A program made the translations under genes and the position numbers. Shown here one piece after another: positions 833-49,086 of a DNA stretch of 64,000 nt. Position 1 is the stretch's first letter, and each line of letters opens with the position of its first letter. Source of the stretch: Pyropia haitanensis (lineage: Eukaryota; Rhodophyta; Bangiophyceae; Bangiales; Bangiaceae); assembly GCA_008729055.1 (NCBI GenBank), contig SDUX01000008.1, forward strand, positions 3,187,756 to 3,251,755. The letters are read 5' to 3'. Below the pieces are notes generated by a model that saw only the letters and a list, made by a program, of their open reading frames with translations, was not told the DNA's origin and did not search any database.

Positions 833-3006
833 ATGTTCTCTGGGGACGGCCTCGACGGGGCCGCCCCCTGTGACGACGCCGCCCTCTCTTCCATGGCTTC
901 CATTGTCGTTGTCGACGCGGCCACGGTGGCGCCAACGCCCGCACGGCCTGCACGCCCCGCCGCGGCCACCGCCGCCAACGCCGCGGCGACCGCGCCTCCC
1001 CCCCCTCCTCCACCGCCCCGGTCGTTGCGCGGCCCATCCCCCCCCCCTCGGCCAACGAGGCGGCGGCGCTGGCCGAGGTCTTTGACGACCTGTGCCTGCG
1101 GTTCCTGTACAACCTGCCCGAGTCCGAGTTCGAGTCCTTCCCCCGCCTCTTCTTTGCAGTCGAGCAGGCCTACTGGTTCTACCTCGACTTTTCGCGCGAA
1201 GCGCAGCGCAGCCTGCCGCCCATGTCCCTCCGCACGTTTGCGCGGCGGCTGTTTGAACACAGCCCGCCGCTGCGGCCACACCTGCCACGGCTGGACGAGC
1301 TCGTCGCGGACTGGAAGAGCTACAAGGGGGACATCCCGACGTGCGGGGCGGCGTTGCTCAACCGGGACCTGGACAAGGTGCTCCTTGTCCGCGCGTACGG
1401 GTCGGGCGGGCGGTGGGGGTTCCCAAAGGGGAAGATTGGCAAGGACGAGACCCCGTTTGCCGCCGCCATGCGCGAGGTGGCCGAGGAGGTGGGCTACGAC
1501 GCGACGCCGCTGGCGAATGAGCGCGACGCGCTCGTGTCCACGTCGTGCACCCACGGGTCAGGCGGCGGGGGGGGGGGGTCTGGCGGCGGTGGCGGCAGTG
1601 GCGGCGGTGGCGGCGGCGGAAGCAGCGGCGGCGGCAGCGGCGGCGGTGGCGGCGGAGGTGGCGGAGGCGGTTCTGCCGGTGGCACATCCACTGGGGGGGG
1701 AGGTGCGGACAGCGGTGGCGGCGGCGGCGGCGGTGGCAACGGCAACAGCAGCAACAACGGCAGCGGCGGTGGCCGCAAGCTCCACCTCACCATCTTCATC
1801 GTTGCGGGCGTAGACGAGGACACTGTTTTTGAGACGCAGACGCGCAAGGAGATTTCCGAAATCGCGTGGTGGCCACTCTCCCACCTCGCCGAGTCGCGGG
1901 CGGACCGGGAGACGCCCCTCCCCGACGGGGGCGTCCCCGGCTTCCCGTCGGGGCCGGGCGGGAAGAAGGCGTACCACTTTCTTGTCGCGCCGTTTCTCAA
2001 GCGCATCAAGGCGTGGGTGGCCCGCCGCAAGCGTCTGGCCGCTCGCGCGGGGGGGAAAGGTGACAAAGGTGCTGCCGCTGCGGCTGGCAGCAAGGGGGGG
2101 GGGGGCGGCAAGGCGGGTGGCAAGGCGGCTGCGGCGGCGGCTCGGGCGCTGCCGGCGGTGCCGGCGTCGGCCCCGTCTGTGCCGTCTTCGTCGGCTTCAG
2201 CGTCGTCATTGAGCACGGGGCCGCCGCCCGCCAGTCTACCCCTTCCCTTAGTTGCCACCGCGGCGGCGCCGTCGACAGAAGAAGCAGCGGTGGCAGCGAC
2301 GGCGGCGGGTGTAGGCACCGTGGCGGGCCCACTGCGAACGCCGCCGCGGCCGGCGGCGGCGGCGGCGACGGCGACGTCGGCCGGGCAGGGGGGCCCGCCC
2401 CTGCGAGAGCTGCAGCCGTTCCCGCTGCCACCGCTGGCCGTATTGGGCACCGGCGCGCCCGCCGAGCCAGACCCGGCGGCGGCGGCTGCGCCGGTGGTGC
2501 CCGCGCCCGGCGCGCCGGGCCGGTACGGGCTGTTGCCGCAGGCCCCGCCTCGTCCGCTGCTGCCAGATGCGGATTTCGGCGGGGGGGGCGGGGCGGGTGG
2601 CGCTGGTGCCGTTGGCCGGTCCTTGGACGCGGCCGCCGCGGTTTTGTTGGGCGCTCTTGGCGGCGGGGGCGGCGGCGGTGGTGGGGGTGCGGGCGGCGGC
2701 AGCGGCGGCGGTGGTGGCGGCGGCGGCGGCGGCCACAGCGGCGGCCACAGCGGTAGCAGCAGCGGCGGTGGCGGCAGCGCGGCGGGCGGCGGCGGCGGCC
2801 TCACCGCGCGGGAGCGCGCGTGCCTGTACGAGCGGTACCTCGCGGACACGGCGTCGCGGGCGGCGGAGCTGGGCCTCGGCGCCGACGAGTGGCCGCCGCC
2901 GGGCGCGGGCGCCGGCGGCGGCTGGCCGCCCGCCACGGGGGGAGGGGCGGGGGGGGGGGGCGCCCGACGCCGCCTCGCCGCCCGCGCGTGCCCGTCCGGC
3001 CGCTGA
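833..3006 (+). CDS. DCP2: mRNA-decapping enzyme DCP2 (Nudix hydrolase), one frame break
   Basis: DCP2 removes the m7G cap from mRNA in cytoplasmic decay (P-bodies). From 1087 the frame reads DDLCLRFLYNLPESE, the N-terminal regulatory region of DCP2, then WKSYKGDIPTCGA, then a complete Nudix box at 1429-1497 (G-x5-E-x7-REVAEEVGY). The C-terminal half of the Nudix fold (LHLTIFIVAGVDED, ISEIAWWPLSHL) follows at about 1780-1890. The rest is Gly/Ala/Pro-rich and probably disordered. This frame has no ATG before 1222, which lies inside the conserved region. The ATG at 833 (context gcagccATGttc) is in another frame and gives a plausible Ala/Pro-rich N-terminus. Joining them needs one extra base in the C-runs at about 1007-1047. 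A glycine-rich stretch at 1560-1774 interrupts the Nudix fold. It is convergent with the aminotransferase gene downstream. The family call is firm; the start is less certain. Confidence 0.9.
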
Positions 3007-34403: not shown

Positions 34404-35228
34404 ATGGTTCTTCATCCCCTACGCCCCCCGCGGAGCCAGCGGGCTGTTAACAACACCTGGGTGGGGCGGTGGCTGGGGCGGTGGCGGGGGCGATACCCGC
34501 CGGGGCGGCGGCGGCGGCAGCGGCGGCGGCAGCGGCGGCAGCGGCGGCAGCCCATATGCGGTGTCGGGTGGTGGCGGCGGTGGCGCCGGCGGTGGTTCCA
34601 TTCGGCTGGGCGCGGCGCCCGCGGCGCCCGCGGCGGCGGCCACGTCGGCGAGCGCCTTCTACCCCCTTTCTTCCTCCTCCTCCTTTTCCCCCTCCTCCTC
34701 CTCTTACCCCTCGATAGGCCGCACGTGGAGCGACAACCGCCGGCGGTGGGGGGACCCCCCCGCGGCGGCGGTGGGGGTCTCTTTCAGGGACCTTCCCGGC
34801 CGCTCCCTTCGTGGCCGCCGTGCAACCACGGCGCCCGCGTCGTGGCGGACGGCCGCATCCCGGTGCGGGCTGCCCGTCAGGGCGGGGGGGGTGCTGCGGC
34901 TGGGGAACGACCGCCGCGTGCCAGGAGGCGGGGGGGGGGGGCGGGGGATTTTTTTTTTTTTTTTTGTAAGGAGGGGGGCAGTGGCGGTGAGGCGGTGACA
35001 GGGGAGTGGGTGCTGTGGAGCTGTTGTGCGTCAGACTGTGCTGAGCCAATCGGGGATGGAATTGGGAACGCTCCTGACTCAGAAGTCCTCTTTGGCTTCA
35101 GAAAGGGACGTCCCTCTGTCGAGCGATGTCCCCCTCTTTCCGACAGCGGGCAGAGAAAGACATCAGCAAATCTGTCCCGGGCCTTTCTGCACATCCCTAT
35201 CGCGCACGCACGGCGCACCGCCGGCTAA
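34404..35228 (+). CDS. hypothetical gene behind the TATA box, structure unresolved
   Basis: The ATG at 34404 opens MVLHPLRPPRSQRAVNNTWV, after which the frame becomes Arg/Trp-rich low complexity and runs to 35228. The neighbouring frame reads as a smoother Gly/Ser-rich chain (GGSPYAVSGGGG, FYPLSSSSSFSPSSSSYPSI). An early intron or homopolymer error therefore probably moves the true protein into that frame. A 15-T tract at about 34951-34965 may mark its 3' region. No domain recognised. The promoter evidence is better than the coding evidence. Confidence 0.35.
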   Translation: MVLHPLRPPRSQRAVNNTWVGRWLGRWRGRYPPGRRRRQRRRQRRQRRQPICGVGWWRRWRRRWFHSAGRGARGARGGGHVGERLLPPFFLLLLFPLLLLLPLDRPHVERQPPAVGGPPRGGGGGLFQGPSRPLPSWPPCNHGARVVADGRIPVRAARQGGGGAAAGERPPRARRRGGGAGDFFFFFCKEGGSGGEAVTGEWVLWSCCASDCAEPIGDGIGNAPDSEVLFGFRKGRPSVERCPPLSDSGQRKTSANLSRAFLHIPIAHARRTAG

Positions 35229-35503
35229 ACCGGCTCAAGATCCGGCTGCTTTTTGGCTGCCAGCAACGCCGTCCGCTTGCTGAGAGTGTTTCCACCAATG
35301 CGAACGATCTGCCTACCATCTCACAGGCAACTTTCGGAATATTCATTTGAGCGTCCACGTGGCTGCTGAATGTCGTCTCCGCCAATGGGAGCGCAGCACG
35401 GGCAAACGGGAGTCCGGTGGCGGCCAGATTCGGGCCTCCGATTCGGTTTCAGCCCTCAATGGAGTTGAGGTAGTTGAATCTAACTCTCGAGTGCCACGTA
35501 CAC

Positions 35504-35583
35504 AAACGAGATGGTCATGACCATCTCGGAAACGATCTAGGGGGGGGTAGATCGTTTCCGAGATGGTCATGACCATCTCGTTT
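35504..35583. repeat. 36-bp perfect inverted repeat with G8 loop, Harbinger left end
   Basis: Arms 35504-35539 and 35548-35583 are exact complements separated by eight G. Each arm contains gagatggtcatgaccatctc, itself a 20-bp palindrome. The same ACCATCTC/GAGATGGT words occur just inside both TIRs (35315, 47520-47535), so it is probably a transposase- or SANT-protein binding cluster. Confidence 0.9.
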
Positions 35584-35913
35584 CGGGTTATGGGAAGGTA
35601 TATTGGGCTAGAATGGGGTCTAGAACGGGACATTGGAGACATCCTCGAAAGTTTTTGGGTGCAACCCGAAAGCCGCACGGCGGCCGCTCGTCCCGTGCGG
35701 AGGTCCCGCGCCGCGGGGTGCCGGCAGGCCCGTCGCCACGGTTGCTGTGGCGGGCCAGTCGCCACGGCTGCTGTGGCGCCTCGCGCCTGTCACACATTCG
35801 CGCCCGTCGCAATCCGCGGGCGGCGCCGGCAACCCCGCCCGAGGCGTGTCCCCGTGTGCATCGGGGCCGGCGGGAATGGCACCAGAGAGGGGGGCGGGGC
35901 AGGGGTGGCGACA

Positions 35914-36290
35914 AGCGGCTGTGCTGCGGCGAGGCAGCATCGGCCGCGGCCCCGCGCGAGAGGCCCGTTCAGGGGCGTGGCGAGCGGGGGCGGGCTGTGG
36001 GGGGGGGGGGTGGGGAGCCTGCGGCCGCGGCGTGTCGGCCGCGGCCCGACCCAGGAGCATCATTTCCGGACGTGTGGGGGGGGGGGACGCCCCTACGGGC
36101 GCGTGCGGCGGGGGTGGCAACCAGCGGCCGTGCCGTGTCGGCCGCAGCCCCGCCGGAGAGCATCGCTCTGAGTGGTGTGGGGGGGGGCGGGCGTCACGTG
36201 GGAGGCGTCCGGGGGGGGGGGTGGCATGGAGCGGCCATGGCGCGGCCGAGCAGTGTCGGCCGCCCCCGCTCGAGCGCTGGTCAGGTGGTG
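35914..36290. repeat. four diverged subterminal repeats, Harbinger left end
   Basis: Copies begin at about 35914, 36020, 36123 and 36229, spaced 103-106 bp. Their shared core is (a)gcggc(c/t)...gtgtcggccgc followed by a G-run. Such subterminal arrays are common binding sites in Harbinger and CACTA elements. The readings of this stretch in the long + strand frame are therefore probably not protein. Confidence 0.65.
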
Positions 36291-36676
36291 TGGGAGGGGA
36301 GGGTGGGGGGCGGCAGGGGGGTATTGTGGGGGTGCCGGCTCACGAGGGCCGCAACGTGGCGGCCCGCATATCCCCCCCCCCACCCTCGACCCTGTTTCGC
36401 CCGTGCCTGGTGTGGGGGGGGGGGAATGGGTGCCACTGGGTGCATGGCGTGTACCGTGTGGCACGCGCAGCGCCGTTACCCGGTCGCCGTCGCCGTCGTC
36501 GCGACCATCCCCATCGCCGGCACCGCCGCGATCACCACCATCCCCACCACCACGACGGACACCACCGCCGCCACCGCAGCCGCCATCACCACCTGCACGT
36601 GAGTGGCACTGTTTTGTCGCCTGCGGCGCTATCGTCAACGTGTCGGCCGCCCTGTTTTCGCCCGAGGGGCCACGCC

Positions 36677-38415
36677 ATGGACCCGCCCCTCCCCGCCGTC
36701 GATCGGGAGGCGTGGGAGGTGTCTGAGGGGTCGGCCGACGAGACGCGCGCCGCTGTGCTCGCGTCACAGCTCTCTCTTCGGCGGCGGCGACACTACGTGG
36801 CGCTGCTGGGCGCCGTGGCGCGGCGCCGACGTCGCGGCGGGTCCGTCCCCGGCCGCCGGCCCAACCGGCCGCGTGGTTTCGATGCGGGCTTCCATAGCAT
36901 TCTTCGTGACTACTTTGGCGTGGACGGGTGCCCGCCTGTGTACGGCGAGGCAGATTTTGAGACGCGCTTTCGTGTGCCCCGGAATGTCTTTATGGAGATA
37001 TACGACGACGTGAAGGATCTTCCCTACTGGAAGCGGACGGTCAACGCAACTGGGCAGCCACAGGCGCATGGACTGCAGAAGGTGGTGGCTGCCTTTCGCG
37101 TGCTGGCGTACGGCGAGGCCGCTGATCGGCCTGACGAGTACCTGCGCCTGGCGAAGTCAACAACGGCGGTAGCGACGCAGATGCTAGTCGACCACATCGT
37201 GGACAACTACGAGTGCTCTTACTTGCGGCCACCCACTCTGCAGGAGCTGGCCCACATCCTCGACCGTAACGCGGCACGGGGCATGCCAGGCTGTATGGGC
37301 AGCATTGACTGCTCTCACTGGGCCTGGCGCATGTGCCCCAAAGCGCTTGCAGGACAATACCAAGACTACAAGAAGCGACGCTCTGTGGTCATGGAGACGG
37401 TTTGTGATGAGGACCTTTTCATCTGGCATTTCTTTGTTGGCCCGCCTGGGAGCCACAACGATCTCAACGTGTGGGGCCAGTCCCCGCTGTGTATGGACAT
37501 TACCAGTGGACAGTGGCCCCCGGACATGTTTGAGTACACACTGAACGGCCGGACCCGTCGCTTACTGTACTATTTGGCCGACGGTGTTTATCCCCATTTT
37601 CCTTTCTTTGCCCGACCCTTCTCCCGCGCCGCCAACAACTCCCTGAAACGTCGCACGTACAACCGCCTGCAGGAAGCACTTCGAAAGGACGTGGAGCGCC
37701 TGTACGGCGTGCTGACCGCGCGGTTCCACATTTTGCTCCGGCCTGCCAAATTCCACTCTGTCGACCGCATTGTCCGCACTGCCAAAGCTGTGGCCATCCT
37801 GCACAACATGGTCGTCATTAACCGTCGGGACGGGTATCTCTCTCGGCGCCGCATCGGCGATGCTTTTGGTGAGCCGGGCGCCGCGGCCTCGACGTTGGCC
37901 GCGGCAGCTGCAGCAGCGTTGGCGGAGGCCGCGGGGAGTGCCGCCCTGGCGGCGGGCCCAGCCGGTGGGTCTGGCGGAGGTGGGGTGGGGGCGGCCGCGG
38001 GGAGTGGCACCCTGGCGGCCGGCCCAGCCGGTGCGTCTGGCGGAGGTGGGGGGGGGCGGCCGCGGGGAGTGGCACCCTGACGGCCGGCCCAGCTGGTGCG
38101 TCTGGCGGAAGTGGGGGGGCGGCGGCCGCGGGGAGTGGCGCCCTGGTGGCTGGCACGCCGTGTGGACCTGTCGGTGCTCGTGGCGCGGGACGGGTGGTCG
38201 CAGGCGGTGGATCTTTAGGTGGACGCGGAGGAGCTGAAGCAGTCGACGGTCGTGGTTGCCGTTCAGGCCACCCTGACGACATGCAGCGGTTGTCCGGCCT
38301 GCGGAGCCCGACGGAGCATGAGCGCTTGCGGGAGGACCTGGTGGAGCACATCTGGGCGCATAGGAAGAACGCGCTCGCGCCCTACCTCCATCGACACGAC
38401 GACCTCATGCGTTAG
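36677..38415 (+). CDS. PIF/Harbinger transposase (Plant_tran / DDE_Tnp_4 type)
   Basis: Excises and inserts the element. The ATG at 36677 (cacgccATGgac) gives MDPPLPAVDREAWEV. The protein contains FETRFRVPRNVFMEIYDDV and then the DDE core: GSIDCSHW (Asp 211), GPPGSHNDLNVWGQSPL, YYLADGVYPHFPFF (Asp 302) and RKDVERLYGVLTARFHILL (Glu 340). Spacing and motifs match the Plant_tran family. After residue 410 a 60-bp Gly/Ala repeat occurs about four times (37.92-38.16 kb). A 9-G run at 38048-38056 then breaks the frame. One extra base restores a typical family C-terminus (TEHERLREDLVEHIWAHRKN) ending at 38415. The element may therefore be intact (assembly error) or newly inactivated. Convergent with the SANT-like gene. 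Confidence 0.93.
37925..38160. repeat. about four tandem ~60-bp Gly/Ala-coding repeats in the transposase gene
   Basis: The unit contains gcggggagtggcaccctggc followed by a ggcccagc(c/t)ggtgcgtctgg block and a G-rich spacer. Copies differ by a few substitutions and G-run length. They separate the DDE core from the conserved C-terminal LVEHIW helix. Confidence 0.75.
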
Positions 38416-38433
38416 AGCCTGAACGGCGTCGTA

Positions 38434-38473
38434 AAGGTTTTTTTTTTCCCTGACGGGTTTTTTTTTTCCTCAT
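38434..38473 (+). terminator. T-tract 3' motif after the transposase gene
   Basis: AAAGG, ten T, CCCTGACGGG, ten T, CCT begins about 20 nt after the transposase stop. An almost identical motif follows the convergent SANT-like gene in mirror orientation. It probably directs 3'-end formation or RNA stability in both transcripts; the role is inferred. Confidence 0.5.
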
Positions 38474-38960
38474 ATCCCTCGTTTGGAGAGTACCGCCGCT
38501 GCGGCCAAGCTGTAGTATCTCCGCCTTGGGGCCGGCAGCGGCCGCAAAAATGGCGGGGCCGGGCCGGGCGGCTACTCGCCCCGCCGCTCACTTGGCGTGC
38601 GGGGCGGCCGCACAGCCGCGGCTGCCCGCCCACGCCCAACCCACGCCCCGTCCTCCCCGCGGCCGGTGGCGGCCGCCATCGTGGGATGCTCAGGTGCGGC
38701 CTGCTGCGGCCGGCCGCGTCGCCACTCGCCGCGCCGCTCGCTGAGCGCGCGGCGCGGCCGCACTGGTGGCGCTGCTAGGCCGCGCCGCACCCCGCCGGCC
38801 CCGGTGCTGTTTTTCGCATGTGGGCGTGGATGGTCTAGTGCGGCCGCTGCGAGAGCGAGGCGTGCGTGGTTTTATGTTCGGCGTTGTCCACGCCGAGTGT
38901 GTGCATCCTCGCCGACTTGGCCCTCTCCGTTTCTTGCTGTCATCATCGTGGCTGCAAAGT
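38474..38960. other. spacer between the convergent Harbinger genes
   Basis: About 0.5 kb with no supported frame. It contains two diverged direct copies of a ~45-bp sequence (38568-38612, 38716-38762; core cgccgctcnctnngcg(t/c)gcgg(g/c)gcggccgcac). Confidence 0.55.
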
Positions 38961-38965
38961 GCTTA

Positions 38966-39002
38966 AGGAAAAAAAACCCCGGAGGGAAAAAAAAAACCTT
39001 TT
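38966..39002 (-). terminator. T-tract 3' motif after the SANT-like gene
   Basis: Read on the minus strand: AAAAGG, ten T, CCCTCCGGGG, eight T, CCTTAAG, starting about 25 nt after the stop at 39027. It matches the motif after the convergent transposase gene apart from the central three bases and T-run length. Confidence 0.5.
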
Positions 39003-39026
39003 ATGTATCGCTCGTCTGCCAAAGCG

Positions 39027-41390
39027 TCACAGGAACAAGTCGTCGTCGTCCTCGTCCTCTTCCAGCTCTTTCACTTTGCCGATGAGGAGGCCAAACTCGT
39101 CGTCATCATTGATGGCTCCAGTGTCCGCGTCCGGGTCCTGCTCAGCGTCTTCATCACCTTCCCCGTCAGCTTCCTCCTCGTCCGCATAGCTCTCTCCAGA
39201 TCCCGATGAAGGAACTGTCGGTGCGAGGCGAGGGGCCATCCACCTTGGCCCCTTCCCCTTAGAGCTTCGCTGCGTCGCACATTGAAGCTGCTTGTCGATT
39301 TGGGCGCGACGACCGTCGGACAGCAACGCGGCCGCAGCGCGTCCACCGCCCGCGGCCGTCAAGGACATACGTGGATGGGGCGCAATGGCCACCGTGCCTA
39401 TCCCTGCTGCTTCTGCACGCACCGCCGTGGACGCACTAGGGCTTGAAGTCCCCGCCGGCCGCGTTGAAGTCGGCCGCGCGGCCGCCGCGGCAGGTACAGC
39501 ACCTCTGGCTGCCCGCGGCGGCTCCACGGGCGGCCGTCCCCACACCACAGCAGGCAGCGACGAAGATGACGTCGCTGGAGTGGGTTCCAATGGACGCCAA
39601 TTCAGTACCGGCGCAGCGCGTCCCGTGCGCGGGAGGGCAGGGCGAGCCACAGCCGCGATAGGAGGGGAAGAGCGGCCGCCAGACGGTCCCGTGACCACGA
39701 CCGCATCGGTCCCGCCGGTGAGCGTGGTTGCGGCGGCAGGACCGGCCGCGGGGGCGGCACAGGTAGTCGGCGCGGCCGTCGTCGCGGCCGCGTCGCCGCC
39801 TCTCCCCGGACCGCCACCACCCTCCGACATGCCCCCCAGCAGCGACATCCGCTCTGCCGCACCATCTTCTCCAGCCCCGTCCTCAGGTTCCTCCTCGCTG
39901 CCATCTGCGGCTGCCCATAACCTCCCCTCCGCACCACCACCAGCGGCGACGGCCGGTCCATCAGCCGTACCGTCCGCGGCGGCCGCCTCCGAGGCGGCCG
40001 GAGCTGCCTGCGCGGCCAAGTGCGCTGCGATAAGCTCATCCGCGCGCTGGGCGAGAAAGTTGCGAAAGCGCGGCTCGTCGCGGATGGCGGGGGCCGACAG
40101 CGTCGCTATCAGGTTTCTGTCGCTCGCCGCCCGAGCAATGACCTTGAGCGCCTCGGTGTTGGCAATGCCCTCATTCGCAAAAGCTTTGTCCCTTGCAGCC
40201 TGCGCCATCCGGTTCAGGGTCGCCCGCGTGCCCAGCGGCCGCTCGGCAAAGGTCGCCGGCCGCTGACGCTTGCCCGGCGTCAGACCATCCGTCGCTTCCG
40301 AGCCGGCGCCGTCCGTTGCCGCGCTGGCGACGCTGGCTTCGCCTGCGCCAGCGGCCGCTCCCACCGGCGGGCCGTCCCCGCGGGCCCGCCGTCGGCGCGC
40401 CTCTTGGGCGGCCATGGCGGCCGCCCCGCTATACTTGTCTGAAACCTTGAGCACCCGCCAGCAGTTCATCCAGTACTCCGCTCTTGACTCGGGTGACTTA
40501 AGCCTCGGGTGGGGAACGTACTTCCCCATTCTGATGGCCTCGTACACATCCCGCTTCTCGTAGGAGGCCATCATGGCCAGCTCCATGTCGGCCTCCGATG
40601 GGTTGCCAGTCAGGTCGAGGCTCTCCACGTGCACACGCGCGCACACCAGGCGCATGACCTTCTCATTCAGCTTCTGGTAGTATCGCTGCACGGCGGCGGC
40701 CTCGCGGACAACCCTAGTACCGAGGCCGCCATCACCGGCCTGTGCGGCAATGCGGTCCATACGCGCCTGGAAGTTGGCCGTCACAGCAGCAAAAAACTCC
40801 TTGCCCTTCTGGTCGGTACCCACCACAGCATCCTCAGACACCTCCAGCCACGCCGCACTCAGCTGTACGCGCTCGACGGCGGAGTAGGGGACCCCGTTGG
40901 TGTGGATGCGAGGTCCCACTCCAGCTCGAACGCCCTCCGCGCCGCGGCCGCCGCCGCGGCCGCGTCCTCGAGCGACTGCAGCTGTGGTGGCGGCCGCTGA
41001 ACCTCCTCCGCGGCCGTGGACGCCTCTTCCGCCTCGGCCGCGACGCCCGGCGCTGGGTCGCGTGCGGGCCCCGGCGGCTGCTGCGGCGGCCTCTCCGTCG
41101 GGGTCGCCGTCACCATCGGTGAGGCCGTCGCCGTCCCCGTTGCGGGCCGTGCGGCCTCCCGCGGGCGGTGGCCGACCGCCTCGTCCGCTCGGTCCTCCGT
41201 CACGGGACGCCCCGCCACCTCGGCGGCGCCGTCGGCCACGCGCCGGGGCAATCTCGGGGGTGCTGTACCCGGCGGAACTCGCTGCCCCGCTGCCGTCGCT
41301 GTCGTACCCGGAGCAGGTCCCACTGCCGCTGCTGCCAACCTCGTCGCGGCTGCTCCGCCCCCCTCTGGCGGTGGGAGGGGACGGGAACAT
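39027..41390 (-). CDS. Harbinger Myb/SANT-like DNA-binding protein (ORF1)
   Basis: The partner protein of PIF/Harbinger transposases, thought to bring the transposase to the nucleus and element ends. The start at 41390 gives MFPSPPTARGGRSSRDEVGS followed by an SG/D-rich and Arg/Gly-rich region. At about residues 165-290 is the plant NAM-associated/SANT-like domain: GVPYSAVERVQLSAAWLEVS, EDAVVGTDQKGKEFFAAV, VQRYYQKLNEKVMRL, SRAEYWMNCWRVLKVSDKY. A basic stretch (TPGKRQRP) and helices follow. The end is strongly acidic (DDDEFGLLIGKVKELEEDED). The frame stays open far upstream through the tandem array, but that upstream reading is unlikely to be used. The gene may instead be joined by splicing to the upstream Cys/W-G frame. 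Confidence 0.8.
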   Translation of the reverse strand: MFPSPPTARGGRSSRDEVGSSGSGTCSGYDSDGSGAASSAGYSTPEIAPARGRRRRRGGGASRDGGPSGRGGRPPPAGGRTARNGDGDGLTDGDGDPDGEAAAAAAGARTRPSAGRRGRGGRGVHGRGGGSAAATTAAVARGRGRGGGRGAEGVRAGVGPRIHTNGVPYSAVERVQLSAAWLEVSEDAVVGTDQKGKEFFAAVTANFQARMDRIAAQAGDGGLGTRVVREAAAVQRYYQKLNEKVMRLVCARVHVESLDLTGNPSEADMELAMMASYEKRDVYEAIRMGKYVPHPRLKSPESRAEYWMNCWRVLKVSDKYSGAAAMAAQEARRRRARGDGPPVGAAAGAGEASVASAATDGAGSEATDGLTPGKRQRPATFAERPLGTRATLNRMAQAARDKAFANEGIANTEALKVIARAASDRNLIATLSAPAIRDEPRFRNFLAQRADELIAAHLAAQAAPAASEAAAADGTADGPAVAAGGGAEGRLWAAADGSEEEPEDGAGEDGAAERMSLLGGMSEGGGGPGRGGDAAATTAAPTTCAAPAAGPAAATTLTGGTDAVVVTGPSGGRSSPPIAAVARPALPRTGRAAPVLNWRPLEPTPATSSSSLPAVVWGRPPVEPPRAARGAVPAAAAARPTSTRPAGTSSPSASTAVRAEAAGIGTVAIAPHPRMSLTAAGGGRAAAALLSDGRRAQIDKQLQCATQRSSKGKGPRWMAPRLAPTVPSSGSGESYADEEEADGEGDEDAEQDPDADTGAINDDDEFGLLIGKVKELEEDEDDDDLFL

Positions 41391-44300
41391 GGCGGAACGG
41401 TTGGCGCTGCTGCTACTGCTGCAGGTGGCGCTGCCGCAACCGGCGGTGGCGCTTGCGGGGGATGACGGGCCCGGCCCGGGGAGCAAGCAGGGGGAGTCGG
41501 TTCCCCCCGCTCTCCAGATGTTGTCACCGCCGCGGGGCCGGAGGGCGTCGCGGCCGGCGCAGGCAAGTTGCTCAAGAATGGCTGCGGTCGTGGGCCGGTG
41601 TCGCTCGGCCCACCCGGGCGCGGCTGCTCGGCGCTTGGCTGCTGCCCGCTGTACGAGCTCGGCAGTTGCGGGCCGCTTGGCGGAATGCCCCCGCGCGGTG
41701 CCGGGGACGGCAACGACCTCGGCTGTCCGCCCGCCGTCGCAGAAGACGACGGTCGGTTGGCCGCCTCGCCACCTGCCTGCGGCCGCGCCTGCCCGCGAGG
41801 GCTCGGCGGCCGCTGCTGCTGCTCGTTGCGTAGTCCGCTTGGCCCCGCCTGGCCGTCGCCTAGCGGCGGCGGCGCCTGGCGCCGCGGGCTCGGCTGCCCC
41901 TCCCACTCCTCGCCGCCCCTCCCGCTCGGCCCCGCTTCGCCACCGCCCAGCGGCGGCGGAGTGCGTCGACGTGGGCTTGTCGGCCGCTGTTGCCGCTGGT
42001 GGCCCCGCCCGCTCGGCCCCGCTTGGCCGCCACCCGATGGCGGCCAAGCCTGCTCGCGTGGGCTCGGCGGCCGCTGCCGCTCCTGGTTGCCCCACGTGCT
42101 CGGCCCGGCCTGGCCGCCGCCCAGCGGCGGCGGTGATTGACGGCGTGGGCTTGGCGTCCGCAGCTCCCGCTGGTTGCCCCACCCGCTCGGCCCCGCTTGG
42201 CCGCCGCCCACTCGCGGCGGCGTCTGACGGCGCGGGCTGCGCGCCGGCTCCTCCTGCTGGTTGCCCCACCCGCTCGGCCCCGCTTGGCCGCCACCCGACG
42301 GCCACCACGCCTGCCCGCGAGGGCTCGGCGGCCGCTGCAGCTGCTGGTTGCCCCACCCGCTCGGTCCCGGTTGGCCGCCACCCGACGGCCACCACGCCTG
42401 CCCGCGAGGGCTCGGCGGCCGCTGCAGCTGCTGGTTGCCCCACCCGCTCGGCCCCGCTTGGCCGCCACCCAGCGGCGGCGGTGATTGACGGCGTGGGCTG
42501 CGCGCCCGCTGCTGCTGCTGGTCTGCCCACCCGCTCGGTCCCGCCTGGCCGCCACCCGACGGCCGCCAAGCCGGCCCGCGAGGGCTCGGCGGCCGCTGCA
42601 GCTGCTGGTTGCCCCACCCGCTCGGCCCCGCTTGGCCACCGCCCAGCGGCGGCGGTGATTGACGGCGCGGGCTCCGCGCCGGCTCCTCCTGCTGGTTGCC
42701 CCACCTGCTCGGCCCCGGTTGGCCGCCACCCGACGGCCACCACGCCTGCCCGCGAGGGCTCGGCGGCCGCTGCAGCTGCTGGTTGCCCCACCCGCTCGGC
42801 CCCGCTCGGCCGCCGCCCAGCGGCGGCGGCGTCTGACGGCGCTGGCTGCGCGCCCGCTGCAGCTGCTGGTCTGCCCACCCGCTCGGTCTCGCCTGGCCGC
42901 CACCCGACGGCCGCCAAGCCGGCCCGCGAGGGCTCGGCGGCCGCTGCCGCTCCTGGTTGCCCCACGTGCTCGGCCCGGCCTGGCCGCCGCGCAGCGGCGG
43001 CGGCGTTCGACGGCGAGGGCTTGGCGTCCGCAGCTCCCGCTGGTTGCCCCACCCACTCGGCCCCGCTTGGCCGCCGCCCACTTGCGGCGGCGTCTGACGG
43101 CGCGGGCTGCGCGCCGGCTCCTCCTGCTGGTTGCCCCACCCGCTCGGTCCCGGTTGGCCGCCACCCGACGGCCACCACGCCTGCCCGCGAGGGCTCGGCG
43201 GCCGCTGCAGCTGCTGGTTGCCCCACCCGCTCGGCCCCGCTTGGCCACCGCCCAGCGGCGGCGGTGATTGACGGCGTGGGCTGCGCGCCCGCTGCAGCTG
43301 CTGGTCTGCCCACCCGCTCGGTCCCGCCTGGCCGCCACCCGACGGCCGCCAAGCCGGCCCGCGAGGGCTCGGCGGCCGCTGCCGCTCCTGGTTGCCCCAC
43401 GTGCTCGGCCCGGCCTGGCCGCCGCGCAGCGGCGGCGGCGTTCGACGGCGTGGGCTTGGCGTCCGCAGCTCCCGCTGGTTGCCCCACCCGCTCGGCCCCG
43501 CTTGGCCGCCGCCCACTCGCGGCGGCGTCTGACGGCGCGGGCTGCGCGCCGGCTCCTCCTGCTGGTTGCCCCACTCGCTCGGTCCCGGTTGGCCGCCACC
43601 CGACGGCCACCACGCCTGCCCGCGAGGGCTCGGCGGCCGCTGCAGCTGCTGGTTGCCCCACCCGCTCGGCCCCGCTCGGCCGCCGCCCAGCGGCGGCGGC
43701 GTCTGACGGCGCTGGCTGCGCGCCCGCTGCAGCTGCTGGTCTGCCCACCCGCTCGGTCCCGCCTGGCCGCCACCCGACGGCCGCCAAGCCGGCCCGCGAG
43801 GGCTCGGCGGCCGCTGCCGCTCCTGGTTGCCCCACGTGCTCGGCCCGGCCTGGCCGCCGCGCAGCGGCGGCGGCGTTCGACGGCGAGGGCTTGGCGTCCG
43901 CAGCTCCCGCTGGTTGCCCCACCCGCTCGGCCCCGCTTGGCCGCCGCCCACTTGCGGCGGCGTCTGACGGCGCTGGCTGCGCGCCGGCTCCTCCTGCTGG
44001 TTGCCCCACCCGCTCGGTCCCGGTTGGCCGCCACCCGACGGCCACCACGCCTGCCCGCGAGGGCTCGGCGGCCGCTGCAGCTGCTGGTTGCCCCACCCGC
44101 TCGGCACCGCTTGGCCGCCGCCCAGTGGCGGCGGCGATTGACGGCGCGGGCTTGGCCGCCGCTCCTGCTGCTGGTTGCCCCACCCGCTTGGTCCGCCCTG
44201 GTTGCTGCCCCACAGTTCTCGTCCACGGAGGCCGCCGTCCTGCGGCCTCGTGATGCCCGCCAGGTCCTGCCTCGGTGGGCGAGCCGCCCAGGGGCAACGA

Positions 44301-44671
44301 CAGGTCCAGTGGCACAGTCCGTGGCGATGCCCCGCGTGCTCTGCCAGGCGACACTGCCAGCACAGGCGCCGGAAGCCTCGGCGCACCTGTGTGCGCGACA
44401 GCTCCGCAGACTGACCCCACCAGCGGTTTGGTGCCTGGCCCGCGGGCGGTCGAGCGGCCCACGGGCACCCGCACCTCCACTGACAGAGCGGGTACTCCGG
44501 GCCCGTCACCTGCGCCCGGTGACAACGGGCGCAGAGGGCTCGGCAGCCACGGCGATGCTGGTCCTTGCTTATCTGCCGCGGCGGGGGCCCACCTCCCGGT
44601 GGCAGGCCCCTGCCAGGTCCGTCCTTGGACGGCCCACTGCGTCCTTGGTCCCCTCCGTCGCTCGCCGTCAT
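40859..44671 (-). CDS. Harbinger third frame: duplicated Cys motif plus 28 W-G repeat units
   Basis: A 1,270-residue frame from ATG 44671 (MTASDGGDQGRSGPSKDGPG). Residues about 45-75 and 101-130 hold two copies of C-x2-C-x12-C-x3-C-x-C-PWAARP, a probable metal-binding motif I cannot assign to a family. Between the copies Cys, Pro, Ala and Arg codons differ by silent third-base changes, which supports this frame over the other open frames. Residues about 161-972 are 28 tandem 29-residue units such as PSGWGNQQLQRPPSPRG then QAWWPSGGGQPG. Units 1-25 carry PS-x-W-(G/A), with 21 WG and 19 GW pairs in Ser/Gly/Asn/Gln context, as in Argonaute-hook proteins. The last part is Pro/Ala-rich and overlaps the SANT-like gene in another frame, so the true 3' end is probably spliced earlier or joined to it. 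Both products could be one protein. Confidence 0.55.
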   Translation of the reverse strand: MTASDGGDQGRSGPSKDGPGRGLPPGGGPPPRQISKDQHRRGCRALCARCHRAQVTGPEYPLCQWRCGCPWAARPPAGQAPNRWWGQSAELSRTQVRRGFRRLCWQCRLAEHAGHRHGLCHWTCRCPWAARPPRQDLAGITRPQDGGLRGRELWGSNQGGPSGWGNQQQERRPSPRRQSPPPLGGGQAVPSGWGNQQLQRPPSPRGQAWWPSGGGQPGPSGWGNQQEEPARSQRRQTPPQVGGGQAGPSGWGNQRELRTPSPRRRTPPPLRGGQAGPSTWGNQERQRPPSPRGPAWRPSGGGQAGPSGWADQQLQRARSQRRQTPPPLGGGRAGPSGWGNQQLQRPPSPRGQAWWPSGGGQPGPSEWGNQQEEPARSPRRQTPPRVGGGQAGPSGWGNQRELRTPSPRRRTPPPLRGGQAGPSTWGNQERQRPPSPRGPAWRPSGGGQAGPSGWADQQLQRARSPRRQSPPPLGGGQAGPSGWGNQQLQRPPSPRGQAWWPSGGGQPGPSGWGNQQEEPARSPRRQTPPQVGGGQAGPSGWGNQRELRTPSPRRRTPPPLRGGQAGPSTWGNQERQRPPSPRGPAWRPSGGGQARPSGWADQQLQRARSQRRQTPPPLGGGRAGPSGWGNQQLQRPPSPRGQAWWPSGGGQPGPSRWGNQQEEPARSPRRQSPPPLGGGQAGPSGWGNQQLQRPPSPRGPAWRPSGGGQAGPSGWADQQQQRARSPRRQSPPPLGGGQAGPSGWGNQQLQRPPSPRGQAWWPSGGGQPGPSGWGNQQLQRPPSPRGQAWWPSGGGQAGPSGWGNQQEEPARSPRRQTPPRVGGGQAGPSGWGNQRELRTPSPRRQSPPPLGGGQAGPSTWGNQERQRPPSPREQAWPPSGGGQAGPSGRGHQRQQRPTSPRRRTPPPLGGGEAGPSGRGGEEWEGQPSPRRQAPPPLGDGQAGPSGLRNEQQQRPPSPRGQARPQAGGEAANRPSSSATAGGQPRSLPSPAPRGGIPPSGPQLPSSYSGQQPSAEQPRPGGPSDTGPRPQPFLSNLPAPAATPSGPAAVTTSGERGEPTPPACSPGRARHPPQAPPPVAAAPPAAVAAAPTVPPCSRPLPPPEGGGAAATRLAAAAVGPAPGTTATAAGQRVPPGTAPPRLPRRVADGAAEVAGRPVTEDRADEAVGHRPREAARPATGTATASPMVTATPTERPPQQPPGPARDPAPGVAAEAEEASTAAEEVQRPPPQLQSLEDAAAAAAAARRAFELEWDLASTPTGSPTPPSSAYS
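41756..44191 (-). repeat. 87-bp minisatellite, 28 units, with 435-bp higher-order structure
   Basis: Twenty-eight units of 87 bp (29 codons). Unit types recur in the order LQ/WW, EE, REL, T-ERQ, ADQQ. This block of five (435 bp) is repeated three times (units 2-6, 7-11, 12-16) and again with losses. The last three units are the most diverged. All three minus-strand frames and one plus-strand frame stay open through the array, so open length alone says nothing about coding. Confidence 0.92.
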
Positions 44672-46478
44672 TGTGACCAGCAGGAGACAAAGGCAGCACA
44701 AGATGCGTCTCGCGGTCCGACAGCGAGGGGGACAGGGGCTCGTGCCGGCCTGGCCGCCGATATCCGCCGGCGAGAGTTGGGTCTGACGGCTGAAGGCGGC
44801 CGGCGTCGCGGCCGCCGGTCATAGCCGCTCGACGTCCCGGGTGCGCGATGGATGCGCTCGCCCAAAAAGAACGAACCGGCACTGCTGTGGGGAGCGATCC
44901 CCCCCTACCTCTCGCCACAGCACGAGAGCCCGAGATGCGGCCGCCAGCGCATGTTGCGCGCGGCCACACAGCGGGAAGAAATCAGCCAAGTGTCGCCCGA
45001 AACAGCCACCAACAGCACGTACTCCACAGCGGCGCGCGCGACCATACAGAGCGCGACCCGTTCTGGGCGGCCGCACGTAGACTCGCGGTCTGGACGACAG
45101 CGGCACTAGCCGTGCGGCCGCCCAGAATCCAGGGGAGAGCCGCCTCCACCCGTGCGGCCGATGCCAGGGGGGATGGTCCCCAGCCGCGTCGACAGTAGGG
45201 CCGCCCCGAAAAAAGATACACCAGGCGCGAAAACCGTGCGGCCACGGAGACGATGCGAGGGAAGACGGCCCCTCCCCGGCACGGCCGCGAACAGTGCACA
45301 CGCCCCTCCGGAAGAGGGGGGGCGGCGACGAACCGCGGCCGCCGTGCGGCCACGAGGGACGCACGGGAGTGGCCGCAACGCGGCCGGTGTGCCACCAAAG
45401 ACCCGCACGACGGCGGGGCGGTGCGGCCGTCACTCGCCCGTACGGCGAAGCGGCCGGATCGAAGGTGCCGGGGAGACCAAGGCGGTGCGGTGACCCCTGC
45501 CTCGCCGGCGGCCCCTCCCCGTAGTGGAGGGGGGGGGCCTGGCCGTCGACGGCCACAGTCGCTCCGCCGGACCCTATTGGGTCACACGGGCGGGGCCCCC
45601 AAGTGGCAAACGCCCCCTCCTCGCGCGGGGGGACCGTGCGGCCGACTGCTGCCGCAGCACAATAGAGTTGGGGGGGGGGGGGCACGAGCACGCGGACGAC
45701 CAACGCGGCGCAGGCCGCGATGCAAGGAGGGGCACAGATGGCGACGCGCAACCCCTCCTCGAGCGGGGCGCCCGTGCGGCCGACTGGTGTGGCCGCACAA
45801 TTGAGGGTGGAGGCGGGGGTGGACGAGCGTGCCGGCGACCAATGCGGCGCAGGTCCCGACGCGGGGAGGGGCACAGACGGCGACGCGCACCCGCTCCTCG
45901 TGCATGGCGTCCGCGTGCCCGCCTGGTGGTGCCACAAAAGGGGGTGGCACAGCCGAGTGTGTGGTGGAGTGTGGTGTCGGATGTCAAATGCAAATCGCAC
46001 GGGGCCCGCACGATGAGTGGCCCCCAAGCGCAAAGCACCGATTGGCTGGTGTGCGACGGTCGTGCGGCTCGCGACAGCGGACAACAGTATGGGGGGCACA
46101 TAGACGGAGGGACACCCCGGCTGCATCTGGCGCACAGGCCGACGCCAAAATCAATCTGCCCCCCCTCCTCTTCGAGGCTGTGCGCCTCGCACGCGATTGG
46201 CGCGCCGCATGACTGCGCCCGTCGCGACCCCACGCGTGGGGGGGAGAGGCGGGGCTGCGGGCTGGCGCGGGGGAGCGCTGTGGCCCCGCGTGGGACGCGG
46301 GTGGTGAACTCGGTATACGTAGCATGGCGAGGTCGCTCGCCGCGGGAGGGGGCGCCAGCCAAAGGAGGGCGGGCGTTTCAGAAACCAACTGACACGCTCA
46401 AACCGGCCTCCCAATCGAAGAACAGGGCGGAGGGGGCCGCGCCTCCTCCTGCGGGCGAGTCCAACGACCACCCCCGGC
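44672..46478. other. Harbinger right subterminal region
   Basis: Presumed promoter side of the minus-strand Cys/W-G gene. The word gtgcggcc(g/a) recurs at least six times between 45050 and 45790, and a CCAAT box (minus strand) lies near 46040. Open frames on both strands here look like shadows of low-complexity DNA. Confidence 0.5.
45614..45950. repeat. diverged ~138-bp tandem repeats, 2.5 copies
   Basis: Copies begin at about 45614, 45753 and 45889. Each starts cc(c/g)ctcctcg, continues with a cgtgcggccgactg-type block, and ends with gaggggcacaga(t/c)ggcgacgcgca. They are probably subterminal protein-binding sites of the transposon. Confidence 0.7.
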
Positions 46479-46835
46479 ATGCGCCTGTGCGGACAGTCCG
46501 GCACGGAGTGCCCCCTACCGTGCCCTGTCGGCGGCGGCTTCGCCGACGCCCTCCCTTCGGCGCCACGCGCACTGAACACGTGGCTGGAGGAACATATTAA
46601 CGCAAAGCGCGCCGTAGGGACCACGAAAACAGTACCATTCGAAACTGCCGCTGACAGGCGACGTACGTCGTCCGCCACGTTCGCGAGCGCAGTATCCGGC
46701 GAAGGGGGGGGGGGGAGGAGGGGGCGCGGGATCCGAATGCGGGATGCTCGGATCGACCAGGATCCGCGTGCGTTGGCGCAAGGGACGGCGGCGAGGCCCG
46801 GTGGAGGAAGCTGGGCGGGGACCATCCGCGCTTGA
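46479..46835 (+). CDS. possible small Harbinger ORF, 118 residues
   Basis: Reads MRLCGQSGTECPLPCPVGGG, then a mixed-composition middle (NTWLEEHINAKRAVGTTKTV), unlike the Arg/Pro shadows around it. No domain recognised. The overlapping minus-strand frames look less natural. It may be an exon of a larger transcript or chance. Confidence 0.25.
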   Translation: MRLCGQSGTECPLPCPVGGGFADALPSAPRALNTWLEEHINAKRAVGTTKTVPFETAADRRRTSSATFASAVSGEGGGGRRGRGIRMRDARIDQDPRALAQGTAARPGGGSWAGTIRA

Positions 46836-47539
46836 CAGCACGCTGAGGCAGGGGGGGGGGCGGCACCATAGGACATGCCCCCGCGTCTCGCGACGGCCAC
46901 GACAGAAACACACCCAGAGGCAACCTACGCAACGCCAACGAGAGACGAGAAACCAGTTGACAGTCTCCCCACCTGTCGTCCATCCAGCACACGGAGCCAC
47001 GTGATTGGCCACCTCGACGAAACAGCAACAAAAACACAGAAGTTGGCCCTACTTGCACCTATGACTGCATGAATGTCGCATATGACACAGGAATATAGGG
47101 CAAAAAAAGTCCCAACGTGGCACAAAATGGGCCCAATCCCGGCCAAAGCGGCCCCATTCCTCCAAAGCATTGGCCAAACGTCCCGATACTGACTGGGTTT
47201 GTCGTGCGTGTCACGTGATTTACGGACCAGAATCGAGTGCCGCCGGCATGTTTCGACTGCTGCCCGGCTCCGAGACGGGGGCTACCGCATATTCTCGCTT
47301 CCGTATCCATTTCGTGCAATCCCAGAGCGAAACACGACGATCCGGAGCCATATCGACGTTCTTGTACAGGACTCTTTCCCGTAACCGAGAGGACAGGCTG
47401 GCGACTGGTAAAAATCATGTAGCCCCCGTCTTTGCACAACTACATTACGAACATCGAGAGCCGCCGCTCTCAGCCAGTCACAGACGCGCACGTGGCGTTT
47501 GAAAATTCATACGGCCCTGAGATGGTCATGAGATGGTAA
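46836..47539. other. right end of the Harbinger element, no gene
   Basis: Moderate-GC sequence leading to the right TIR. It contains a short inverted-repeat-rich stretch and GAGATGGT words at 47519-47535 shared with the left end. No supported frame. Confidence 0.5.
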
Positions 47540-48217
47540 CGCATTGGTGGAAACACTCTGAAACCGGGTGTCGCAAAGCCGTGGCATCGCAAAGAATTGC
47601 GAAAATCGCAGCCCGTTGCGAAACGAGTGTTGTTTCCACATTCTCGCCCACTCTCACCGCTTTTGCGTTCTTGTTGTGGATATCTCCCGGCCATTCCCTG
47701 ACATTCATCATTATACTGTAACCAATGAGAGGCCCGGAAGTGAGAGCGGGCGCCCACGCAATGACCTTTGTCGCTCTATATCAGTCACTTTTCTTGCTAG
47801 CGGGCGACACACCGAGCGGGAGATTTTTTGACTCACGACGTGTACAACTCGTCTTTTACAACGTCGTTGCGGTTCACGCATTCGGCTTGCGATCGTTGGG
47901 ATGTCGCCGAGCACCATGTTGTATAGCGCGCTGTGAAGAGGCATTTCGGTTGACCACCCGTCACGGGGTCGTTGTCGCTGGATGGCCCAGCTCGTGACGA
48001 TTCTGCACGTATGAGGCGAGGAGGCGGCGAAGGACCAGAAGCCCTTCTTTCAAAAGATAAACTGAAAAATGCAGAAAATGCTCCATCAGGAGTCGAGAAA
48101 GAGGGCCCGCAAATCCTTGCGAGCTCTGTTTACAACGAAAATCGCAAGGAGAGCTTGAGCCGGTTTAGCCGGCGGTGCGCGGGCGTCAGGGAATCCTGAG
48201 CGCCTCTGTGTCTGAAC

Positions 48218-49086
48218 CAGGGTTGTGAGGGTAATAATTACAGTTATACAATTATAGCAATGATTTCACTGAAATCATCGAAATCATGGGAGGCCTACCA
48301 TAATTATGAACGAGATCGCCACGTTTCTCGATCTCCGAGGTTGGATCGGGCACCCGATCGCAGGACAGCATGTGACAGCACGGAAGTGAAGTTTGGCGCG
48401 CCGTACGGGCGCACGCAAGGCCGTGTGCGGCGGCAGATGGGGTCCGTCTGCAGACGCGGCAAGCTGCGGGAGGAGGACCCCCTAGCCTCAACCACGACAG
48501 CGGCCGCCGCCGCCGCTGCGCTGCTCAGCCGCGGCATCCGCCTGACGCGCGCTGCGCCGGCAGCTACTTAATAGACTGCTGAGTTGATATACGAGTGGCC
48601 CGTTCCAGCAGGTCCTCCTCGCGATCCTCCCCAGCACTTTCATCGTTCCAAACGTCTTCCTCTCCACTTCCTTCCCCACCACTACCCTCCCGCTCTTCGT
48701 CTCCCACGTCCTCTGGCTCATCTGCGACCTCCTCTAGCTCGACATTGTGCAACCCGAGCTCCGAGGAGCCACGGGCAGGCATGTCCACGTGATCTGGTAG
48801 CACGCGCGAGTTGAAGCAAATGTAGAGCAGCTTGTGGAGGGTGGTGTACGACAGCTTCGTGCGCAGCTTGCTGTGGATATTGGCCGCATTGGAGAACGAC
48901 CTCTCTCCGGCCGCGCGTGGCGGTGCTTGCCGCCACCTGGTCTCCACAACATTGGGTGCTTCGAACTGAAGGCTAAATCTACACGTGGCAGCATTCATGG
49001 TTTCTATAATTATAAACTGAAACGAACGAAAATTATAGTGAAATCAAAGCTTCCGAGCATGATTTCACTGAAATCTTGCAACCCTG
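48218..49086. mobile_element. degenerate hAT-family element, 869 bp
   Basis: The ends CAGGGTTGTGAG (48218) and the complement of CAGGGTTGCAAG (to 49086) are typical hAT termini. The flanks tgtctgaac and agtctgaac match at 8 of 9 bases, an 8-bp-type target duplication displaced by one base. Both subterminal regions contain tgatttcactgaaat. Too short to be autonomous. A transposase remnant lies inside on the minus strand. Confidence 0.85.
48564..48998 (-). pseudogene. hAT transposase C-terminal fragment
   Basis: A 144-residue open frame with ERSFSNAANIHSKLRTKLSY followed by TTLHKLLYICFNSR. This is the hAT C-terminal dimerisation motif (ER-FS-a--i---r--L----l--L--i--N). It is followed by a short acidic tail. 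The catalytic DDE part and zinc finger are missing, so it cannot be an active transposase. Confidence 0.8.

Follow-up and report, generated by a model that had tools for sequence, protein, structure and literature searches.

The window analysed here is a 64,000-nucleotide stretch of the Pyropia haitanensis genome (contig SDUX01000008.1, positions 3,187,756 to 3,251,755 of the forward strand), and it contains a PIF/Harbinger transposable element of 12,275 bp (35284..47558). Besides the genes for a DDE transposase and a SANT-like protein, this element very probably carries a real third gene, distinct from these two and with a 3' end that overlaps the SANT-like gene, for which a product of 1270 amino acids was predicted (40859..44671, minus strand). 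The predicted product consists of two cysteine (Cys) modules, an array of W-G and S-P-R motifs, a proline-rich stretch, and a conserved C-terminus. It is best read, with a confidence that falls slightly short of an even chance, as an accessory protein whose N-terminus resembles a metal-binding region and whose tract is basic, disordered, and multivalent, encoded by a young three-gene PIF/Harbinger family.

The array (41756..44191, minus strand) runs from 44191 to 41756 in 28 tandem units of exactly 87 nt (29 residues), 25 of which carry PS-x-W-(G/A), in agreement with a preliminary description of this DNA. The residue following the W was G or A in all 25 cases; in the final three units the W is replaced by R, R, and L. 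The same description had placed these motifs in Ser/Gly/Asn/Gln surroundings, which does not hold: the tract is composed of 20.0% G, 19.1% P, 14.3% Q, 13.1% R, 8.9% S, and 5.3% W, with 3.9% LIVFYMC and a net charge of +74. S-P-R was found in 25 units and S-Q-R in the other three, and the residues P1, S2, S14, and R16 were invariant (28/28) compared with 25/28 for the W. Among the 88 open segments of at least 300 amino acids in the window, the best 300-residue stretch of the array contained 25 W residues adjacent to G or A, and the next best segment contained 10. A 435-bp block of five units is repeated within the array; the 25-fold count results largely from block duplication and does not represent 25 independent motifs.

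The frame that encodes these motifs (the W-G frame) is open for 1270 codons from its ATG (44671..40859, minus strand). Because the neighbouring minus-strand frame, which is that of the SANT-like protein (the SANT frame), is likewise open over the whole array stretch (1980 codons), the open W-G frame is no proof in itself, and separate evidence was needed for the choice of frame. Cys modules A (44444..44557) and B (44273..44386), both on the minus strand, lie upstream of the array and share the pattern C-x2-C ... C-x3-C-x-C-P-W. In the window, the two modules differ at 45 of 114 nt, with 23 of the differences at third positions of the W-G frame, and their translations are identical at 21 of 38 residues in this frame, at 10 and 11 in the other same-strand frames, and at no more than 15 of 37 on the opposite strand; under another register, 48 nt differed, 22 of them at third positions, and 19 of 38 residues were identical. 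When both modules were pooled and compared between three lineages, third positions accounted for 39 of 57, 35 of 64, and 40 of 70 differences (p = 7e-8, 4e-4, and 4e-5, respectively), in comparisons that share sequences with one another.

Further evidence was obtained at the opposite end of the gene. The C-terminal 65 nt (ELEWDLASTPTGSPTPPSSAYS to the stop; 40859..40923, minus strand), which overlap the SANT-like frame, are hyperconserved, with 2/65 and 6/65 differences relative to two diverged lineages. On both sides of these 65 nt, 36-50% of the SANT-frame third positions are changed; the Fisher test at SANT-frame third positions gave p values of 0.0012 and 0.0023, and changes start again immediately past the W-G-frame stop in the alignment with the diverged lineages. 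The six changes found at one related locus, L009, fall on first, second, and third W-G positions 0, 3, and 3 times. Since both frames overlap here and the changes are so distributed, dual coding and a nucleic-acid signal fit equally well. At another related locus, j10, 25 of the 26 C-terminal residues are identical. Downstream of the array, the tested stretches of the window (41755..40862), the related copy j12, and L009 contained no stop in the W-G frame, and 5 and 0, 9 and 2, and 2 and 8 stops, respectively, in the other two minus frames; this count is weaker than it appears, as the j12 stretch starts past a W-G-frame stop and j10, which has a stop and a frame change, was left out.

The G+C content by codon position in the array was.80/.75/.85 in the W-G frame and.85/.80/.75 in the SANT frame. 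The former order, and not the latter, matches that of the DDE gene (.63/.43/.72) and of the first 900 nt of the SANT-like gene (.69/.52/.80), these two genes being the only controls; other open reading frames had been ranked on third-position minus second-position G+C. The excess of third-position changes in the Cys modules and the hyperconserved last 65 nt are the grounds on which the third gene-like frame of the preliminary description is regarded as very probably a gene. The third gene is well supported at both ends and by the spread of its arrays, and less so between.

Relatives were identified through the Cys modules and the sequence P0003, and Harbinger copies that lack the third gene are therefore outside the count. 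A search of the genome with P0003 gave 34 matches at 18 places, of which 16 were read (C6:1877k and C1:363k were left out, and L007 was not translated). The full 1270-codon frame is kept in six copies, including that of the window, with differences consisting of substitutions only; relative to the window, the remaining five carry 4, 7, 8, 9, and 29 differences over 4782 nt from the ATG onward. One related copy has 8 units instead of 28 and one W codon changed to a stop, another shows a different amplification together with a frameshift and stops, and the copy at L023 ends abruptly inside the array. A second, diverged subfamily was found at six loci (L010, L011, L012, L013, L021, and L022), with units of 20 or 21 residues (60 or 63 nt) such as PSPRGWGGPSGGNNQLPARP. 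Its array lies in the Cys frame at five of the six loci. At the four loci counted, 46 of 53 units contain W; where a unit is exactly 20 residues long (45 units), S2 and P3 are invariant (45/45) and W is present in 39. This subfamily was 68% and 69% identical to the window in the SANT-like protein (two loci) and 85% in the DDE protein (the one locus reached). No array is present at L009, where GGWANN occurs twice. Related copies with the same third gene had been named in the preliminary description as a check; within this genome the check was run, and W-G arrays were found in the same gene.

Several results weigh against the W-G frame as a functional gene. When codon usage was scored after training on the DDE and SANT-like genes, the array came out higher in the SANT frame (-0.20 per codon) than in the W-G frame (-0.28), and in the Cys block, too, the W-G frame was not favoured. 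Between 41127 and 40924, the third-position excess falls in the SANT frame (22/40; 34/73), so constraint on the W-G protein is without support there. No clear codon constraint was seen in unit-to-unit changes of the array (17 of 50 synonymous in the W-G frame, 13.6 expected), in the six young copies (11 of 44 distinct differences synonymous, expected fraction 0.305), or in the units of the second subfamily (23 of 83 synonymous, 21.4 expected). In the SANT frame the unit-to-unit changes included 21 synonymous ones, with 16.6 expected, and the two frames are not separable by tests within the array. In the 20-residue units, G+C by codon position (.72/.77/.86) was highest at the third position and not lowest at the second, which is of no help to the W-G frame. 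The second subfamily is decayed, with stops at all five in-frame loci and a frameshift at L013. The Cys modules of L009 are in a frame other than that of its later part, a W-G-frame stop follows the array in j12, and j10 has the stop and frame change already mentioned. The Cys module received no confident AlphaFold model (mean predicted local distance difference test score 60, too poor for a fold search), and a Pfam scan of the third gene gave no family above its cut-off, so metal binding is suggested by the cysteines only. A protein search with residues 1-190 of the W-G frame against proteins of similar length (410 candidates) gave none at E 0.1, and scans of viral contigs and of bacterial and archaeal genomes gave no result.

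A single fused Cys-W-SANT protein produced by splicing, as suggested by P0003, was also considered. It was dropped as the principal interpretation because P0003 is located at C1:332660 of the same genome and the later W-G sequence there runs on in frame +1 until it reaches the conserved C-terminus that the copies share. Splicing into one Cys-W-SANT protein is possible. When the P0003 tail was compared with the window frames, 31 of 300 shuffles reached or exceeded the best observed score, and the alignment at TTAAILEQ scored under the shuffle mean (77 vs 84.7).

As an accessory protein, the third gene product would bind metal through its Cys modules, and these may anchor it to nucleic acid or to the complex of the transposase and the SANT-like protein. 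The tract, with its regularly spaced W, R, and S-P, would provide many weak contacts, whether with nucleic acid, by self-association, or through S-P phosphorylation. The protein could thereby serve as a scaffold for the transposition or expression of the element, its partner being putative. The tandem tract grows by block duplication. Metal binding, anchoring, and the scaffold role are each what we infer about mechanism.

It is also possible, although we consider it rather unlikely, that the gene and its Cys modules are functional and that the array is neutral, a low-complexity linker lengthened by block duplication in which G+C-rich codons (TGG, GGN) give rise to W-G incidentally. Such a linker is consistent with the arrays of 8 and 28 units and the different amplification in a third copy, with the five-unit 435-bp block, with the units without clear codon constraint, and with other tandem arrays of the window whose unit length is a multiple of three (e.g., 66 bp in the DDE frame). 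Against it, W-G and S-P return in arrays of different unit lengths, and no other open segment of the window approaches the W-G density. None of the 44 distinct differences among the six copies removes a W codon, a result for which few losses would have been expected anyway.

The preliminary description proposed that the array is an Argonaute hook, i.e., that it binds the host Argonaute via PIWI tryptophan pockets, sequesters or recruits it, and so counters or exploits small-RNA silencing. GW/WG proteins that bind Argonaute include GW182/TNRC6 and, as named in that description, the C-terminal domain of Pol V, SPT5L, and Tas3. Like these, the array has tandem W-G motifs in a tract poor in bulky hydrophobic residues, with 25 PS-x-W (26 in one copy). 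Several W stand in a G/S/N context at least ten residues apart, as is characteristic of GW proteins, disorder being inferred from composition only. The W spacing exceeds ten residues, the figure that a source excerpt gives for TNRC6 sites, and W motifs return in the diverged subfamily at other unit lengths and in the two GGWANN at L009. One Piwi-domain match was found in the genome (E 6e-74; search without exon joining), at L039:1501-2400; it is of eukaryotic type, with 108 of 296 residues identical to human AGO2.

According to an excerpt of PMC5147811, joint alanine substitution at P733, F802, K803, and E838 of Caenorhabditis elegans ALG-1 abolished the binding of AIN-1 and AIN-2. On matching spacing and letters, these residues were mapped to P590, F659, K660, and E695 of human AGO2 (hAGO2). 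At those positions the host Piwi domain has T, K, L, and L and thus keeps none of the four, as read from one pairwise alignment to human AGO2 without a plant or fungal control. The missing pocket residues count against a canonical hook. In addition, the S-P and P-S residues are more invariant than the W in both subfamilies (W 25/28 and 39/45), and the hook leaves the strongly basic tract with S-P-R in 25/28 units unexplained; the tract also differs from known GW/WG proteins in being basic, S-P-R-rich, and encoded by a transposon. With the four pocket residues missing and the W less invariant than the S-P and P-S residues, the hook is unsupported and improbable. Apart from the pockets, the host Piwi domain differs at two of the four positions that we take to be the slicer tetrad (D at hAGO2 637, A at 807), which makes its slicer activity doubtful. 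An excerpt of a review mentions an Argonaute in the red seaweed Asparagopsis taxiformis (PMC12026948).

A variant of the hook is a transposon-encoded multivalent Argonaute platform, in which the array, amplified differently in two subfamilies, would engage the diverged host Argonaute via a non-canonical surface and shield the element from small-RNA silencing; we give this very little weight. If Argonaute binding were true, the transposon would encode a factor that acts directly on the silencing effector. If not, W-G arrays can arise without an Argonaute role, which would be a warning against hook calls made from sequence only.

Similarly slight is the probability that the array acts as DNA, offering the SANT-like or DDE protein of the element a tandem series of binding sites. 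The comparison is with VANC proteins of Arabidopsis VANDAL elements, which are transposon-encoded anti-silencing proteins that cause loss of DNA methylation over their targets, these being described as tandem repeats that vary between related elements (excerpt of PMC5735166). The same excerpt describes localisation of VANC21 in non-coding regions, which argues against the analogy, and here every unit length in the two subfamilies (87 nt; 60 or 63 nt) is divisible by three, with the units placed in an open frame that follows conserved coding modules. Compared by description only, VANC resembles the present protein as an accessory protein encoded by a transposon and differs in that DNA methylation loss is its activity, whereas the present protein is known from sequence.

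Finally, it is highly improbable that the W-G frame is untranslated and the array extends the SANT-like protein at its N-terminus: although the SANT frame is open through the window array and has the higher codon-usage score there, and TTAAILEQ in this frame was found again in j12 and j10 (and in P0003 at a tblastn E of 0.12), SANT-frame stops lie between TTAAILEQ and the SANT-like domain in j12, j10, and L009, the G+C order of the array fits the W-G frame, and the Cys-module constraint falls in the W-G frame.

The element is bounded by terminal inverted repeats (TIRs). The left TIR is GAGTGTTTCCACCAATGCG (35284..35302, plus strand) and the right one lies at 47540..47558 (minus strand); the flanking target-site duplication is TGA (35281..35283 and 47559..47561). 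This 19-mer occurs 19 times in the genome (52.9 Mb, 136 contigs), as eight pairs 10.6-12.3 kb apart and three unpaired copies, and matching TNA duplications flank all eight pairs (TGA twice, TTA three times, TCA three times). The family is young and has moved recently, with near-identical copies bearing perfect TIRs and target-site duplications. The DDE match, the TIRs, and the 3-bp duplications are as expected of PIF/Harbinger, and this assignment by the preliminary description is confirmed.

An outer inverted repeat (35214/48179) was rejected as the Harbinger ends. It belongs to a separate element of about 690 bp (35214..35283 and 47559..48179), which has ends CGCACCGCCGGCTAAACCGGCTC, is flanked by CGG in the window, and received the Harbinger insertion. 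Eight of its nine pairs in the genome, all uninterrupted, are spaced 688-690 bp, and the window pair alone spans 12,966 bp because it is interrupted by the Harbinger element. A perfect 36-nt subterminal inverted repeat containing GATGGTCATGACCATC was found by repeat search at 35504..35583, and ACCATCTCATGACCATCTCA near the right end resembles GATGGTCATGACCATC; both are possible binding sites for proteins of the element.

The DDE transposase gene (36677..38080, plus strand) encodes 467 amino acids from its ATG, with Pfam matches to Plant_tran (1.3e-56) and DDE_Tnp_4 (3.5e-13). The motifs GSIDCSH, YLADGVYP, and VERLYGVL were found in the protein, and its catalytic D, D, and E are presumptive assignments. 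A 66-bp tandem array (37927..38154) lies at the 3' end of this frame. The SANT-like gene (39027..41390, minus strand; 787 amino acids counted from an ATG taken as putative start) shows third-position excess relative to diverged copies. Its SANT label was given by eye, the NAM-associated match (E 0.011, 17.1 bits) being under the cut-off of 27.7; the relative P0002 was 65% identical over 25% of the query. Where the two genes converge, a T-rich/A-rich inverted repeat (38433-38465 and 38969-39001; 33 nt, 91%) lies between their 3' ends, its role being putative.

The DDE gene matching Plant_tran/DDE_Tnp_4, the TIRs, and the 3-bp duplications are features shared with PIF/Harbinger (PHIS) elements, and the second gene, SANT-like by eye, would be another. 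The present element differs from them in its 12.3-kb length and third gene. As described in an excerpt of PMC12730594, Nuwa families encode two proteins (transposase and Myb/SANT), and some Harbinger elements carry extra genes: HarbingerS a SET methyltransferase, PHISTA a TET/JBP protein and a third protein. An extra gene as such is therefore known. By description only, the present element resembles HarbingerS and PHISTA as a Harbinger lineage with an additional protein and differs in that this protein has Cys modules and the W-G/SPR array and no recognised enzyme domain. No Harbinger element with a W-G protein was found among the matches listed in the open-access literature (titles and abstract beginnings), and as far as that search reaches the W-G/Cys protein is new. 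It would add a third gene type to Harbinger elements, and since the family moved recently, the function of this gene is directly testable.

Elsewhere in the window, an A+T-richer open frame containing HSKLRTKLSYTTLHKLLYICFNSRVLPD (48567..49043, minus strand) appeared hAT-dimerisation-like by eye and had no Pfam match at 0.01. Matches to UBX, WD40, and DCP2 box A above their cut-offs, together with the Piwi gene, mark the DNA as eukaryotic, and a host gene with DCP2 box A and NUDIX domains is located at 874..3003.

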